Shown here: positions 6,942-56,104 of the stretch, piece by piece
How positions within the stretch are numbered: the stretch's first letter is position 1
Layout: each line of letters begins with the position of its first letter
Assembly (NCBI RefSeq): GCF_000218895.1
Contig: NC_015703.1
Location: forward strand, 3,237,001-3,301,000
From: Runella slithyformis DSM 19594
Lineage (GTDB): Bacteria > Bacteroidota > Bacteroidia > Cytophagales > Spirosomataceae
Reading direction: 5' to 3'
DNA: 64,000 nt
Translations under genes and position numbers: made by a program
The notes under the pieces: model-generated
Told to the model about the DNA's origin: nothing
What the model saw: the letters and a program-made list of their open reading frames with translations, nothing else
Databases searched by the model: none

Positions 6942-7159
6942 TGCTTTGCTTCTTTCATTACATCATCATGCAAAATACCGGTACCTTCCTCTGCGCTTTT
7001 TTTGGCCTGATTTAATCTTTCTAAGGCTGTTTTTTCCTCATCCGTCAGCTTTTCCTGCATAAACCAATCTAAAGACAGATTGAGGTCAATCAGTTCGGAA
7101 ACATTATCTAAGGCATCAATTTTCTTGTGAATCTCCGCTTTCAATTCTAAAGTTGACAT
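6926..7159 (-). CDS. Antitoxin-like small protein of a broken type II toxin-antitoxin module
   Basis: This 77-aa, acidic, helical protein (MSTLELKAEIHKKIDALDNV...) has the size and style of the short antitoxins paired with ParE/RelE-type toxins in Bacteroidota: an N-terminal helical segment and a charged C-terminal toxin-binding tail ending in MKEAKQWLKR. Its last codons overlap the ATG of the truncated toxin frame at 6941, the normal antitoxin-toxin arrangement. With the toxin destroyed it is an orphan antitoxin. Function is inferred from the arrangement and not from a diagnostic motif. Confidence 0.65.
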   Translation of the reverse strand: MSTLELKAEIHKKIDALDNVSELIDLNLSLDWFMQEKLTDEEKTALERLNQAKKSAEEGTGILHDDVMKEAKQWLKR

Positions 7160-7249
7160 TCGTTTGTTGTTTTATTCTTTACCAAAGATAACAAAGAAGC
7201 TCTTTGTAAATTCCAATAGCGTCGTTGAGGGTGTTTGTCCTACGCCCGA

Positions 7250-8413
7250 TTACTTTCCTGCCAAATGCCGGTTGCGGTATTCGATGGGCGTACAGCCTTT
7301 GATCTGACGAAACTGCCGCGCAATGTTTTTGCTGTCGGTCAGGCCCATCTCCAGGGCGATCTCAAAGACCGTCATGTCGGTTTCGATGAGTTTTTGGGTG
7401 AATTTTTCGATGCGGAGATTGAAGATGTATTTATAGATGGGATAGCCTGTAATGTCCTGGAAACGTTGCTCCAACGCCCTTCTCGACAGCGGAACCTGCT
7501 TCACAATGTCTTCTACCTGTAGGTTTTTGTCAATGTTTTGGTGAATGAACTTGAGGGAAGACGCAATGTAGCGGTCGTTGGTGGCGTAGATGTCGGTAGA
7601 CTGGCGCGTGATAATCTGCGTGGGTTTGACGATGATATCATAATAATCAGCTGTGCCGTGTTCGATCATATGGTGCAGCAACTTGGCCGCGTCGTAGCCT
7701 CCTCTTTCGGTATCCTGCCCGATGCTGGAAAGGGGAGGGTCCGAAAACTCACAGATCATTTCATCATTGTCTACGCCCAGCACTGCTACGTGTTCGGGAA
7801 TGCGGATGTTGGATTGCCGACAGGCCTCGGTGATGTGCTGACCCTGGTTGTCGTCGCAGGTCATGAGGGCAATGGGCTTGGGCAGAGATTTAAGCCATTG
7901 GCTCAGCGGGCTGGGCTTGTAGTACCACAACTCGCTCGACCGCGCCATGATGTGCTCAAAATAGTGTACCTGATGCCCCGCTTTTTTGACTCGGTCTTCA
8001 AAACCATCAGCTCGCTCGCGCGACCAAACGATGTCTTTGAAGCCATAAAAAGCAAAGTTTTTGAATCCTTTTCGGAGAAAATATTCAGCCCCCATCTTCC
8101 CCGCTTCGTAGTGGTCGCCCGTGATATTGGGAATTTCTTTGAAGCGTTCTTTAAAATCCTGCGCAATGACGGGAATGCCCGCTTCCACGATTTTGGAGAT
8201 CTTGGGGTCGTTGTATAATTGGCCGATGATGCCGTCGGCTTCCCACTCTAAGGCCCATTCCAGAATTCCGTCAATCCCGATCGTTTCGCGTTGAAATAAC
8301 GGCATCCGACAAAAGATCCACGGGCCGTGCTCTTTGGAATACTTGGAAATGCCTTTCAACAGGCCTTTGCTGTATTCTTCGGCAAAGTCGATGAGGAGAA
8401 TGATTTTATACAT
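7250..8413 (-). CDS. XylR-like AraC-family transcriptional regulator with periplasmic-binding-protein sensor
   Basis: This 387-aa regulator has a LacI/PBP1-type ligand-binding domain (residues about 1-270, with ADGIIGQL, HVAVLGVDNDEMICE and PLSSIGQD motifs) and a C-terminal AraC-type double helix-turn-helix (about 285-385, ending PIEYRNRHLAGK). It lacks the N-terminal LacI HTH, as in E. coli XylR. Such proteins sense a sugar and activate adjacent catabolic genes. It lies on the same strand as, and 59 bp downstream of, the FucP-type porter, followed further upstream by the ROK kinase and GH20 genes. An amino sugar released by the hexosaminidase is the best guess for its inducer. That assignment is context inference. 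Confidence 0.9.
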   Translation of the reverse strand: MYKIILLIDFAEEYSKGLLKGISKYSKEHGPWIFCRMPLFQRETIGIDGILEWALEWEADGIIGQLYNDPKISKIVEAGIPVIAQDFKERFKEIPNITGDHYEAGKMGAEYFLRKGFKNFAFYGFKDIVWSRERADGFEDRVKKAGHQVHYFEHIMARSSELWYYKPSPLSQWLKSLPKPIALMTCDDNQGQHITEACRQSNIRIPEHVAVLGVDNDEMICEFSDPPLSSIGQDTERGGYDAAKLLHHMIEHGTADYYDIIVKPTQIITRQSTDIYATNDRYIASSLKFIHQNIDKNLQVEDIVKQVPLSRRALEQRFQDITGYPIYKYIFNLRIEKFTQKLIETDMTVFEIALEMGLTDSKNIARQFRQIKGCTPIEYRNRHLAGK

Positions 8414-48886: not shown

Positions 48887-48925
48887 AGGCGTCTGACGGT
48901 TTTAAACCGTCGGACGCCTTTTTTT
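48887..48925 (+). terminator. Rho-independent terminator of asd
   Basis: AGGCGTCTGACGGTTT pairs with AAACCGTCGGACGCCT (ending 48919) and T7 follows. Its core GGCGTCTGACGG recurs in the terminator at 51342-51380. Confidence 0.9.
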
Positions 48926-49066
48926 ATGTACATCGCCAACATCTCTTTCGCTTTAATGCGCTTTTTTCACGGTTTAATTCGTAAATAGCACCATTCACCC
49001 AATCATTTTTAGAAGCGCCGGACAGCCCTGTTAGCTTTGTTTCATCAAAAGAAAAACACTGTTCCA

Positions 49067-50155
49067 ATGACACTTGTCTGCACAAACACCTTGACTGAAC
49101 TCAGTAATCTGGCATACCAAATGCCTTATCAAATGACGGAAGCAAACAAAGAAAGCCTCAATGCTATCCATGAAGAATCGGTAGAAGATTTAGACGACCC
49201 AACGTCGCTGTTTGCATACACGCTCACCAAAGCCATGCGTAAACATTTTGGGCAGGATGCTGCTCAGGAGCATATTTACCTACAACGGTTTGAAATACCG
49301 CAAATTCGTTTGTTTGAGTTACTCATTCAGCAGTTCCCATTAGCCAATTTGAGCCAACACTGTACCAATACACTCCTCATTGATGCGCTCAGCCAACATA
49401 CCCACCCGGTGCTGATGGACATTGGAATCGGTACAGGTTTTCAGGTAATGAACATCATCGAAGGACTAACCAAACGCACCGACTGCCAAATTCAACAACT
49501 CACCATTGTTGGCATAGAGCCTTTTGCCGATGCCGTAGACACTGCCCGCCAAAATATAAACCGCGTAGCTCAAAATGCCGATTTTGGGGTCAGTCTCGTA
49601 ACCCGCGTGGCTTTCATCGAAGCACTATCTTTGGATGAATTGCGCCAAATGCTCCCCAACCAATACGATGGACTGTACGTAAATGCTTCGTTTGCATTGC
49701 ATCATATTCAGCAGCACAGTCAGCGGAAGATGGTTTTCGAGAACCTAAAGGCCTTGCAAATCAATGTGTTGGCATTAAGCGAGCCCAACTCAGACCACTA
49801 CGAACCCATCTACGCCCGACGTTTCCAAAACTGTGTCAATCACTACGGAGCCCTTTTTCGCATCATTGATACCCTCGCCATCTCCGATACCGAAAAAGCC
49901 GCGCTCAAACTCTTTTTCAGCCGTGAAATAGACGATGTATTGGGACATTCGGAAGAAGTGCGGGTAGAAAAGCACTATGCTATCGAGCAATGGAGGGAGC
50001 TTCTCACAGAAACAGGTTTTGTTTTACAGAAACGTTTGGCTACGTTTGAATATACCCAACTTAACGGTACGCATTTACAAACTGATCTCTCCGATCGGTA
50101 CGCAACCGTTTTTGAAAACGAAGAAATCACCGGTCTCTTTTGGGCGGTCCTATAG
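49067..50155 (+). CDS. Bacterial GRAS-domain protein (Rossmann methyltransferase-like)
   Basis: This 362-aa protein reads as a full GRAS domain. Residues 80-110 match the first leucine-rich region (FELLIQQFPLANLSQHCTN). The VHIID-type motif is VLMDIGIGTGFQ (115-126) followed by a LTIVGIEP strand. Near residue 239 comes EPNSDHYEPIYARRF, then HYGALFRIID (the PFYRE-type region). REIDDVLG (about 286) follows, and the C-terminus resembles SAW, with EQWRELLTETGF and a final GLFWAVL. GRAS domains are known from plants (DELLA, SCARECROW) and from a smaller set of bacteria, where comparative work placed them among Rossmann-fold methyltransferases. The start was moved from a TTG (49037) to ATG 49067. 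The HisC-like gene follows after 37 bp, which suggests that both act on one small molecule. Confidence 0.8.
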   Translation: MTLVCTNTLTELSNLAYQMPYQMTEANKESLNAIHEESVEDLDDPTSLFAYTLTKAMRKHFGQDAAQEHIYLQRFEIPQIRLFELLIQQFPLANLSQHCTNTLLIDALSQHTHPVLMDIGIGTGFQVMNIIEGLTKRTDCQIQQLTIVGIEPFADAVDTARQNINRVAQNADFGVSLVTRVAFIEALSLDELRQMLPNQYDGLYVNASFALHHIQQHSQRKMVFENLKALQINVLALSEPNSDHYEPIYARRFQNCVNHYGALFRIIDTLAISDTEKAALKLFFSREIDDVLGHSEEVRVEKHYAIEQWRELLTETGFVLQKRLATFEYTQLNGTHLQTDLSDRYATVFENEEITGLFWAVL

Positions 50156-50192
50156 ATCATACACTCCTACAACCTCTTACCTCTCAATACTC

Positions 50193-51299
50193 ATGCAATT
50201 CATATCAACTCCGGCATCGCTCTGCCGGGCAGCCTCCGACTTTGCCTCTATCCAACAAACTCTTCTTCAGGAAAGACAGTCTGACCTACCCACACGCTTA
50301 CACTGCAACGAGACAGCCTTTGATTTACCACACGCTTTAAAACAGGAGTTGGCGCTCAAAATGGCCGATTTAGCGTGGAATCGTTACCCTGATTTTTACA
50401 ATACCGAACTTACTGCCCTCATGGCACAACACGTAGGTGTGCTACCCGAGAATATTCTTTTAGGCAATGGCTCCTCGCAACTGATTCAGCAAATCTTCAG
50501 TTGCTGCGCCAAATTTTTGTCTGCGGCCATTATTGAACACCCGACATTCACCTTTTACCATCAGGTATGTCATAATGAACGATTGCCTTACCAAACCTGG
50601 CAAATTGCGGACGACGGCAGTTACGATTTAGATACATTTCCCGCCACCGAAGAACCTGCTTTGGTGGTATTGACCTCGCCCAACAATCCTCTGGGGACTG
50701 CTTTGCCCCAACAACTCATAGAAACTTTATTGCTACGGTACCCGCATTGTATTTTTGTGATAGATGAAGCCTATGCCGAATTCGCGGATGGTACCGCGGT
50801 TTCACTTGTTCAGAAATACACCAATTTACTGGTCATAAAAACACTGTCTAAAGGATACGGCCTGCCAAGCGTGCGGTTTGGTTATTTGGCGGGAAGTGCC
50901 GAATTAGTACAATTACTCAAAAAATTCACCGTTCCCTTTACCGTCAACAGTTTCACAGAATTGATCGTAAATGAACTCATTACCAATCCTGCCGTGAGCA
51001 AAGCCGTTCGTATCAATCGTGAGAGAGTCAAAAACTTACGCGATTTTGTTTATCACCAACTCCACGACATGAGCAGCGACGATTCGTTTAGCGTACAGGC
51101 CTCTGCCGCCAATTTTTTACTGCTTCGTTTTGAAGACGACTTGATGCTCCAACAACTCAAGTCGATGTTTGACAGCAATCAGATAGTGGTGAGTTATCCA
51201 CTCCCTAACTGCCTCCGGCTGACGATCGGCACCGAAGTCGAAATGAGCCGCGTATTACGCATTATCAGAAAGGGTGTTTCGGTAGCGGCTGTTGTTTAA
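50193..51299 (+). CDS. HisC-like PLP-dependent aminotransferase
   Basis: This 368-aa class I/II aminotransferase resembles histidinol-phosphate aminotransferase. It shows GNGSSQL (91-97), SPNNPLG (162-168), DEAYAEF (191-197) and the PLP Lys220 in KTLSKGYGLPSVRFG. A long frame upstream (from 49977) overlaps the GRAS gene in another phase and has no homology, so ATG 50193 is used. As the second gene after the GRAS gene and away from other his genes, it is probably not HisC itself but a relative that acts on another amino or keto compound. A terminator at 51342-51380 ends the pair. Confidence 0.88.
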   Translation: MQFISTPASLCRAASDFASIQQTLLQERQSDLPTRLHCNETAFDLPHALKQELALKMADLAWNRYPDFYNTELTALMAQHVGVLPENILLGNGSSQLIQQIFSCCAKFLSAAIIEHPTFTFYHQVCHNERLPYQTWQIADDGSYDLDTFPATEEPALVVLTSPNNPLGTALPQQLIETLLLRYPHCIFVIDEAYAEFADGTAVSLVQKYTNLLVIKTLSKGYGLPSVRFGYLAGSAELVQLLKKFTVPFTVNSFTELIVNELITNPAVSKAVRINRERVKNLRDFVYHQLHDMSSDDSFSVQASAANFLLLRFEDDLMLQQLKSMFDSNQIVVSYPLPNCLRLTIGTEVEMSRVLRIIRKGVSVAAVV

Positions 51300-51341: not shown

Positions 51342-51380
51342 AAGGCGTCCGGCGATTGGAAACCGTCAGACGCCTTTTTT
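51342..51380 (+). terminator. Terminator after the GRAS/aminotransferase pair
   Basis: AAGGCGTCCGGCG pairs with CGTCAGACGCCTT (51364-51376) with T6 following. The stem sequence is nearly the same as that of the asd terminator. Confidence 0.8.
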
Positions 51381-54618: not shown

Positions 54619-56104
54619 CTGGTACTGTCTTAAAATGCAAGTTTAGAATTAGGATTTTTTTATAATTTTGGGACTGAATTGGAATGGCTGCTTTAGGCAG
54701 CTATATCCAGTGTAGTCCCGCCGGTCGGGACTATTTTTTTGTCCAGATTTTGGTGTTCTTTGACATTGTTGGAGTTGTAATTTGGGTTGTATTCTGTGTT
54801 GTTTTTCCAGATGGCATAACAAAGGGTTAGTAACTTTTTTTGGACGGCTACGTAGCCCTTCATCGGTTCGCCGATGCGATTGGATTTTGGTACGTTCAAA
54901 AACGCGCTCAAATAGGGCTTGACAGGTAGGCTCTCCGAAGCGTACCGCATTGAATGCAGGCAAGTGTAATATTCGCCTAATTCTGCTGTTTCCTTTTTTA
55001 GAGATTCTTGTTTTTCCTACGCGATTCCCTGATTGATTTTCGACGACATCGTAACCTGCAAAGCTGACTAACTGGCGAATATTCTCAAAACCGGTAAAAC
55101 CGTTAGTTTCTGCCACAATTGTGGCAACAGTCAACAATCCTAATCCCTTGATTTTGCAGAGTTGCTCTATTCTGGGTTTCAAAATAGGGTCTTTTTCAAT
55201 TAGTTTAGTAATCGCCTGTTTAGTCTCATCAATCTGTTTATCATAAAATTTCACCAATTTTTCCAAGTGTTTTAGAGTGAATTTATCAATCAATCGACTA
55301 TGTAAAATAGCGTGTCGTTGATTCTCAGACCGCTGCGGCGGACCGCTGGTTTTTAAGCTCTTGAAGTGTCTGATAATGACGGGTTAGCATTCGCAATTGA
55401 TAAATATTTTTTGAGAGTGGTTCCCATAGTTTTAGGCTCTGCTCTAACCCCATCTGAGCCAAACTTCTTGCATCAATTGTGTCATTTTTAGATTTGTTGC
55501 CGATACTTTTCAAATAATGTTTGGCCTTATTGGGTAAGACCACACTGACTGCCAAATCATTTTGAAAAAGATACCAAGCTAACTGCTCATGATAGACACC
55601 CGTGGACTCCATTACATAGCGAATAGGCAGAGATTTATCTTTATAATGTTTATCCACCCAAGTCAAAAAACTATCAAAAGCGGTTGCTTTATTGGCCACT
55701 TTTCCGCTTCCTTTAATGGTAATTTTGCCATTGGTGTCAATGAATGAAACGCATACTTGGAGAGCGTCTTTGCTTACGTCTATACCCACGCAATAGCGTA
55801 ATAAAGTGACTGGATTTTGATTCGGTTTGTTCATCGTCAGATGGTGTTTAAAATGTTTTTGCCTGACGGTTTTTCTCGAATTTTGCACATAAATTCAGGA
55901 TTGTTGCTTGCAGCTACATCCGATAGGTACTGTTCAAGTTGATGAGAAAAACAGGGCGAACAGATAGACCAGCGATACAATATCACCTACGATGAGGCGT
56001 ATTAGCGGCGACACTCGGGCTGCTGTTCTCCCCTGTCAAACAACTACTTAAAATTGCACTTTTTCCAACAATTTCAATGAACTACAAAGATATGAACGGC
56101 GAAC
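54619..56104 (-). mobile_element. IS110-family insertion sequence (defective)
   Basis: An element of about 1486 bp is bounded by the two halves of the split PIN gene. The transposase lies on the minus strand. The dinucleotide CG occurs at both junctions (54617-54618 and 56105-56106), in keeping with an IS110 core dinucleotide. About 270 bp between the transposase start (55834) and the right edge is non-coding, the place where IS110-group elements encode their bridge RNA. No terminal inverted repeats were noticed, as expected for the family. Confidence 0.85.
54693..55834 (-). pseudogene. IS110 transposase, two frameshifts
   Basis: The N-terminal DEDD domain runs from ATG 55834 (RYCVGIDVSKDALQV, YVMESTGVYHEQLAWYL, KNDTIDARSLAQMG) to a stop at 55325. 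In another frame the coding continues with ENQRHAILHSRLIDKFTLKH into the C-terminal Transposase_20 domain (IKGLGLLTVATIVAETNGFT, LVSFAGYDVVENQSGNRVGK) to ALFERVFERTK. A small insertion near 54895-54915 then shifts the frame again, and the end, MKGYVAVQKKLLTLCYAIWK, is read in a third phase to TGA/TAA at 54693. The conserved catalytic Asp and Ser regions are present but the protein cannot be made whole, so the copy is inactive unless complemented. Confidence 0.85.

Follow-up and report, generated by a model that had tools for sequence, protein, structure and literature searches.

A bacterial GRAS-domain protein encoded in a conserved operon with a HisC-derived aminotransferase

Introduction

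Plant GRAS domains are regulators that act as cofactors of transcription, and their fold underlies gibberellin, root-patterning and symbiosis regulators. What does such a domain do in a bacterium, and what does it share with the aminotransferase (AT) whose gene stands directly behind its own? The question is raised by a stretch of 64,000 nucleotides from Runella slithyformis DSM 19594 (hereafter the window), which covers positions 3237001-3301000 of a 6.57-Mb contig in a genome of 6.92 Mb and six contigs. A first-pass annotation, made from the letters alone, had read its open reading frame (ORF) at 49067 as a GRAS protein and proposed that it forms one two-enzyme module with a HisC-like AT.

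Bacterial GRAS proteins were reportedly predicted by Zhang, Iyer and Aravind in 2012 to be small-molecule methylases dependent on S-adenosylmethionine (SAM), the same family and the same prediction as here. What is added here is the AT operon, the repeated pairing with ATs, a missing arginine in the AT and an enrichment of two-component genes. That work, which relates bacterial GRAS proteins to Rossmann-fold methyltransferases, is cited in PMC4279901.

Our analysis supports the module. The ORF at 49067-50155 encodes a genuine bacterial GRAS protein, and it shares a widely conserved operon with the gene of an AT derived from HisC. Because the residues of a SAM site are present and the genes share an operon, we consider it probable, at about two chances in three, that the two proteins form one enzyme unit in which a SAM-dependent small-molecule methyltransferase and an AT would work on the same compound.

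Results

The gene pair in the window

Counted from the ATG at 49067, the GRAS protein has 362 residues; the mechanical ORF begins upstream, at an in-frame TTG (49037). Its match to PF03514 (E 4.4e-29, cut-off 27 bits) spans profile positions 12-362 of 374, which is nearly the full length, and the second-best profile, Methyltransf_12, remains under its own cut-off. The family assignment of the annotation was thus borne out by the profile search that it had proposed, and a merely generic methyltransferase is ruled out, the PF03514 match being far better. Among the motifs it had named, VLMDIGIGTGFQ (residues 115-126), YARRF...HYGALF (249-264) and REIDDVLG (286-293) are all in place, but the SAW-like motif reads W-x2-LLTETGF and not W-x3. 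A search with PADLOC for defence genes gave only Cas5f for the GRAS protein (E 5e-4, 17.5 bits), taken as a chance match, and nothing for the AT, so that a defence function was rejected.

Searched with phmmer, the protein retrieves DELLA, RGA, SCL7 and SCL3. With a profile built on 78 bacterial rows, 15 sequences of plant GRAS proteins are recovered, the weakest at E 2e-12, and the next match lies at E 0.12. Structure prediction, also proposed earlier, agrees: the AlphaFold2 model (pTM 0.91) combines a helical cap with a core resembling that of methyltransferases, the arrangement known from plant GRAS structures, and these fill Foldseek ranks 1-12 with TMq 0.77-0.85. This likeness to plant GRAS proteins (DELLA/RGA, SCL3, SCL7, SHR, SCR) extends over the whole domain. 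The bacterial protein differs from them by intact SAM-site residues, the lack of a long N-terminal region and an enzyme partner in its operon. Below the plant structures follow PsoF, BamL, YcgJ, a Streptomyces hygroscopicus methyltransferase (MppJ), SgvM and, lower, EgtD (TMq 0.37-0.46); within the first 50 matches, MppJ and SgvM entries are found within ranks 20-30 and EgtD chains appear from rank 35.

As the annotation had stated, a gene for a pyridoxal phosphate (PLP) enzyme begins 37 bp behind the GRAS stop codon. With its PF00155 match and its PLP lysine, the product is a class I AT of the HisC subfamily (Table 1).

Table 1. Features of the GRAS-AT locus, in window coordinates.
Feature	Position	Strand	Basis or remark
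Left hairpin and T-run, terminating the upstream asd gene; unit boundary	48887..48919	+	-26.9 kcal/mol, z -6.2
Candidate -7 promoter element TAGCTTTG (TAnnTTTG)	49032..49039	+	27 bp before ATG
GRAS protein of 362 aa, predicted to methylate a small molecule with SAM	49067..50155	+	PF03514 102 bits; AlphaFold2 pLDDT 94.8; Foldseek ranks 1-12 plant GRAS
SAM-site glycine motif VLMDIGIGTGFQ, residues 115-126 (D118, G120, G122, G124)	49409..49444	+	conserved in bacterial GRAS
E151, acidic, end of beta 2	49517..49519	+	bacterial rows: E 74/78, D 4/78; Gly in aligned DELLA
H212-H213 after beta 4, candidate substrate or metal site with E239, H244, H259	49700..49705	+	conservation
HisC-type PLP aminotransferase, 368 aa	50193..51299	+	PF00155 158.5 bits; hisC model 223 bits, under 276.55; Foldseek best matches HisC
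K220, PLP-binding lysine (TLSKGYGLPSVRFGY)	50850..50852	+	invariant in 32 AT rows; aligns with SK motif of HisC rows
Right hairpin and T-run, terminating the pair	51342..51376	+	-17.7 kcal/mol, z -3.0; downstream flank as in pair-less relatives

GRAS genes are paired with aminotransferase genes in many bacteria

Bacterial GRAS proteins are not as few as had been supposed: a species-wide scan, in which a degenerate pattern was run over one genome each for 84,980 species and conserved peptides were required, yielded at least 79 distinct named loci. GRAS matches were found in 4 of 395 genomes of an even phylum sample and in 14 of 101 of a family sample, with none among 14 named control genomes. 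The loci listed belong mostly to Bacteroidota, further to Cyanobacteriota, Melainabacteria, Bacillota, Myxococcota and Pseudomonadota, and there is one contig each of Methanoperedens, Rhodothermales and Frankineae. On the archaeal-labelled one (L090, a contig of a Candidatus Methanoperedens metagenome-assembled genome) the GRAS gene lies between ORFs of the kinase/regulator cluster; transfer or a binning error is possible.

We then surveyed 81 loci, the 79 named ones and both GRAS genes of the R. slithyformis genome, for an AT on the same strand at most three genes away. It is present at 39 of them, mostly in Bacteroidota. At 35 loci the AT is the next gene; it precedes the GRAS gene at two (L109 and L111), stands at +2 behind a run of N, which breaks it, at L077, and at +3 at L075. 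The 39 include an AT of only 165 aa (L063) and one ending at a contig edge (L085), as well as that of L111, weak in the first AT screen (E 7e-5) and confirmed by Pfam and a wider profile. In L109 the genes overlap by 4 bp, and in L111 a single base separates the AT stop from the GRAS ATG. The pair is therefore widespread, so that the outcome which the annotation had named as refuting its idea, two genes never adjacent in related genomes, did not occur; the pairing holds for about half of the GRAS loci. In the family sample, fetched separately, an AT adjoins 6 of 15 GRAS genes, the other nine belonging to a second Runella type (five) and to group g184 (four). Since the R. slithyformis genome holds 23 PF00155 matches in 6.9 Mb, we infer that adjacency by chance is well under 1% likely. 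No paper on a GRAS-AT operon was found in the literature searched, which did not include Zhang, Iyer and Aravind 2012.

At L070 (6993-7409) a group II intron, recognised by the maturase-specific domain GIIM, apparently splits the AT gene beside GRAS. At L063 the short AT ORF (7041-7538) is followed, at the contig end, by an ORF that looks transposase-like by eye.

Distances of the two proteins co-vary

In a tree of 80 of the 81 GRAS loci (L107, a split ORF, omitted), the AT label carried by 38 loci changes six times, against about 27 times in shuffles. An AT accompanies 9/9 members of the clade holding the window protein and 27/33 of a large second clade; the six without it there comprise five Marinilabiliaceae and the contig-end locus L078. 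Nearly all linked ATs (36/38) form one clade (98) beside HisC; two of its rows carry the label 'other' but represent linked ATs that the genome search had picked up a second time. Three loci combine GRAS with different ATs: those of L109 and L064 are HisC-type but outside the main clade, and that of L111 is at most 27% identical to any row compared. L111, although one of the 39, stands outside the 38-locus labels of both trees and outside the distance comparison.

Pairwise distances of the two proteins are correlated with r 0.91 over 34 pairs (of the 38, L063, L064, L085 and L109 were omitted) and with r 0.80 within the second clade (25 pairs), and 0 of 5000 permutations reached as high a value. 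Adjacency is kept where the GRAS protein is only 19-36% identical to that of the window and the surroundings change. Since GRAS stands beside an AT in many distant bacteria, both probably work on one small molecule. The repeated pairing with related ATs is the strongest argument for a shared substrate; together with the shared AT clade, the co-varying distances and the pairing with ATs of other lineages, it strengthens the module first proposed for this locus.

One locus sits oddly in these trees. L041 is labelled Flavobacterium sp. SUN052 but falls among Spirosomataceae in both the GRAS and the AT tree; its genome measures about 8.1 Mb, so large that the name may be wrong.

A predicted methyl-donor site is kept in bacterial GRAS proteins

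Conservation was counted over 78 bacterial GRAS rows, the 81 loci minus L035, L052 and L107. G120 and G122 are invariant (78/78), G124 is found in 77/78 and an acidic residue at position 151, which we take to be the ribose-binding position of SAM methyltransferases, in 78/78. The exact set D118, G120, G122, G124 and E151, which the window protein carries, occurs in 64/78 rows; the remaining 14 deviate at D118, G124 or E151. A second group of residues makes up the candidate substrate or metal site: H212 (77/78), H213 (78/78), E239 (78/78), H244 (73/78) and H259 (73/78).

In the aligned DELLA proteins position 122 is K or N and position 151 is G, so that their SAM site is partly lost. They share with bacterial GRAS the equivalents of N206, H212, E239, H244, R252, F264, R299, E301 and W309; H213 and H259, by contrast, are replaced, the first by T or K and the second by Y. 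As far as the alignment tells, bacterial GRAS proteins keep a predicted methyl-donor site that is lost by the plant versions examined. In agreement with this, one study describes plant GRAS domains as devoid of SAM motifs and as binding no SAM in isothermal titration calorimetry (PMC5873383).

The aminotransferase is HisC-derived but lacks a substrate arginine

Against the hisC model TIGR01141 the window AT stays below the equivalog cut-off, and the same genome encodes a separate hisC scoring 355 bits. Because of this second gene, the window AT is rejected as the histidine-biosynthetic enzyme. Its likeness to HisC and histidinol-phosphate ATs (HspAT), and to the aromatic AT (ArAT) Rv3772, covers the fold, the PLP lysine and the second of two substrate arginines. 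The first is missing: where 7/7 separate hisC rows read VR or IR, the window AT reads VVS, and no linked AT among the 15 inspected (main clade, L109, L111, L064) keeps this arginine. Hence HisC-like, as the annotation had put it, holds for the fold but not for a ligand-binding arginine that the separate HisC rows keep.

According to one paper, Arg337 and Arg346 of mHspAT hold the phosphate of histidinol phosphate and Arg322 of mArAT serves an arginine switch (PMC4703992); the first arginine corresponds to 337 and 322 in our own alignment, in which L111 is gappy. Given this replacement, it is likely, on the evidence of aligned residues, that the linked ATs use a non-phosphorylated substrate or a different amino donor.

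Discussion

Proposed function

In the mechanism that we propose, the GRAS protein would be an active SAM-dependent methyltransferase of a small molecule, with the helical GRAS cap lying over the substrate pocket, and the AT, distinct from the histidine enzyme, would interconvert the amino and keto forms of the same compound. Both the catalysis and the shared substrate are inferred. For the chemistry we prefer, tentatively and with the odds against us, carbon methylation of an alpha-keto acid by analogy to MppJ and SgvM, where the AT would either make the keto acid or aminate the methylated product. Methyltransferases of this type work with aminotransferases, and the likeness lies in this keto-acid logic with an AT partner. 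MppQ is listed as a PLP-dependent aminotransferase. Further points in common are the Rossmann methyltransferase core, a helical N-terminal part and conserved histidines. MppJ methylates phenylpyruvate (PMC6117699), and the zinc of SgvM is held by H244 and H296 (PMC10502145). The latter pair is 52 residues apart and H212 and H259 of GRAS are 47 apart, spacing alone being compared; as other methyltransferases score alike, this resemblance is suggestive only.

Several results weigh against the proposed unit or its chemistry. MppJ and SgvM are absent from the sequence-profile matches of GRAS up to E 10, and the Foldseek likeness to keto-acid methyltransferases is weak (TMq 0.39-0.45), no better than that to PsoF or BamL. 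In DELLA, Tyr replaces H259, the residue that by spacing would correspond to the second SgvM metal ligand. Among four other ATs compared, L114 and L115 retain the first arginine, but L133 and L117 lack it although they are not linked to GRAS. The ATs of L109 and L064 exceed the hisC cut-off (290.4 and 296.5 bits), and the genome of L064 has no other match above it, so that the linked AT could be its histidine enzyme; these scores speak against a dedicated role of the two ATs. Finally, 42 of the 81 GRAS loci have no AT in the screened flanks, and the AT is therefore not an obligatory partner; among these, the AT start of L070 is interrupted by the group II intron, and at L078 and L099 the contig ends within the locus.

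Should the methyltransferase-AT unit hold, its conserved operon narrows the search for the substrate to amino and keto acids, and Runella, a genus in culture, would allow such a test. The operon would also suggest what the large cavity in plant GRAS domains formerly contained.

Alternative explanations

The GRAS protein might instead methylate the nitrogen of an amino acid, as EgtD does with histidine, while the AT takes the amino group from, or gives it to, a related compound that resembles histidine. The EgtD chains among the Foldseek matches, the HisC subfamily of the AT and the hisC-level scores of L109 and L064 are all consistent with such a route. We nevertheless hold it unlikely: one of the arginines that hold histidinol phosphate is missing from all 15 linked ATs that were inspected, and no recognised histidine or thiol-histidine gene occurs among the neighbour families seen in at least three loci, as far as these families, partly profiled, go.

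A second alternative starts from signalling genes near related loci. LytTR genes occur at 11 of 36 AT-linked loci (window, L036 and L111 excluded), against 1.66 expected from the density in each genome. They are placed codirectionally upstream (L054, L059, L081, L112), divergently (L040, L056, L082) or downstream (L069). Seven neighbouring sensors tested (L054, L040, L056, L069, L080, L082, L112) combine Reg_prop, Y_Y_Y and His_kinase domains; the kinase adjoining L065 is of another type. Of the 31 other GRAS loci, which include the AT-linked L111, 10 have response-regulator domains within 4 kb, where 4.0 would be expected (p 0.004, densities being taken from candidate counts). For the hormone-like compound that the annotation had thought possible, this enrichment of two-component genes is the nearest hint, though it concerns related loci and not the present one. 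The module might accordingly make a diffusible signal or effector that is read by the adjoining two-component system of its relatives, following the logic of autoinducer synthase and sensor and not their homology. On two large Skermanella plasmids, found separately (L155 on pSM-3, L156 on pSR-3), GRAS is convergent with genes of a PAS domain S-box protein and a response regulator, which fits the same idea. Still, we regard it as improbable, since related loci were treated as independent in both counts, 25 of the 36 AT-linked loci have no LytTR gene in their flanks, the kinase/regulator cluster contains no ORF among those flanking the window pair, four on each side, and a sensor may merely regulate the operon. 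The literature searched contained no paper joining the GRAS domain, Bacteroidetes and two-component systems.

A wider version of this idea is a long shot. It holds that the methylated amino or keto acid made by GRAS and AT would be sensed by the adjoining histidine kinase/LytTR system, that the GRAS fold would have begun as an enzyme of a signalling module, and that plants would have kept part of the ligand pocket and lost SAM binding.

Equally improbable to us as the signal itself is a non-catalytic bacterial GRAS protein which binds and senses SAM or a metabolite, in the manner of the plant GRAS cofactors. The regulatory role of plant GRAS domains and their failure to bind SAM (PMC5873383) point this way, and SpoIIAA-like proteins and two-component genes do flank some bacterial GRAS genes. 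Against it stand the SAM-site residues, kept across phyla and partly lost in aligned DELLA, and a partner that is an enzyme with intact catalytic residues.

An accidental pairing, due to shared ancestry or hitch-hiking and without a common pathway, is very improbable. The pair does seem to have reached its present site as a cassette (see below), but adjacency outlasts deep divergence of the GRAS protein and changes of surroundings, and the pairing recurs with ATs of other lineages and with the gene order reversed.

Boundaries and origin of the locus

Two hairpins bracket the pair (Table 1), and the second accords with the terminator of its own that the annotation had assigned to it. A simple consensus scan for terminators reported the left hairpin and not the right one, finding three sites against 2.8 in shuffles. 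Both hairpins belong to one family, present at nine places in the 6.9-Mb genome at three or fewer mismatches. The candidate promoter element matches TAnnTTTG, the -7 promoter motif of Bacteroidota; as this pattern occurs 66 times in the window against 46 expected, a single site proves little.

Twelve other genomes of the genus were compared. In nine of them asd is followed by an M1 aminopeptidase gene without GRAS-AT; of the rest, L158 and L159 show no peptidase match in 1.5-kb flanks and L168 is cut short. In L160 and L169 a single hairpin of this kind lies in the gap between asd and the peptidase gene, and its right flank continues as does that of the second hairpin in the window, whose first hairpin follows asd. 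Both pair genes have 46% GC, asd has 51% and the peptidase gene 53%. From the comparison of hairpin flanks with the pair-less relatives, the GRAS-AT pair is probably a cassette inserted at the terminator between asd and the M1 aminopeptidase gene. Close downstream of the latter lies an ORF (54649-55293, minus strand) which we take to resemble the C-terminal part of an IS110-type transposase.

Other neighbours of GRAS genes

The second GRAS gene of R. slithyformis (L026:5827-7318, own genome C4, about 1967.8-1969.3 kb) encodes 309 aa and is some 48 N-terminal residues shorter than its orthologues. It abuts a DUF433/DUF5615 pair, and the gene that follows GRAS belongs to the phosphotriesterase family and is no AT; at L025 similar small ORFs adjoin an intact GRAS gene. 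In Paenibacillus sp. P25 (L107:5836-6952) the GRAS match runs over two overlapping frames, indicating a broken gene or a sequencing error.

Four Marinilabiliaceae loci devoid of AT (L047, L050, L052, L066; about 5.4-7.5 kb) carry GRAS between two small proteins of the same family. The one tested matches SpoIIAA-like PF11964 with 21.9 bits, under the cut-off of 25, and YfiR-like, Crp-like and kinase genes are close by. In group g184 (L018:4896-7834), GRAS is preceded by a YceI gene and overlaps by 28 bp a lactonase-family gene (PF10282), which is a candidate for another enzyme partner of GRAS.

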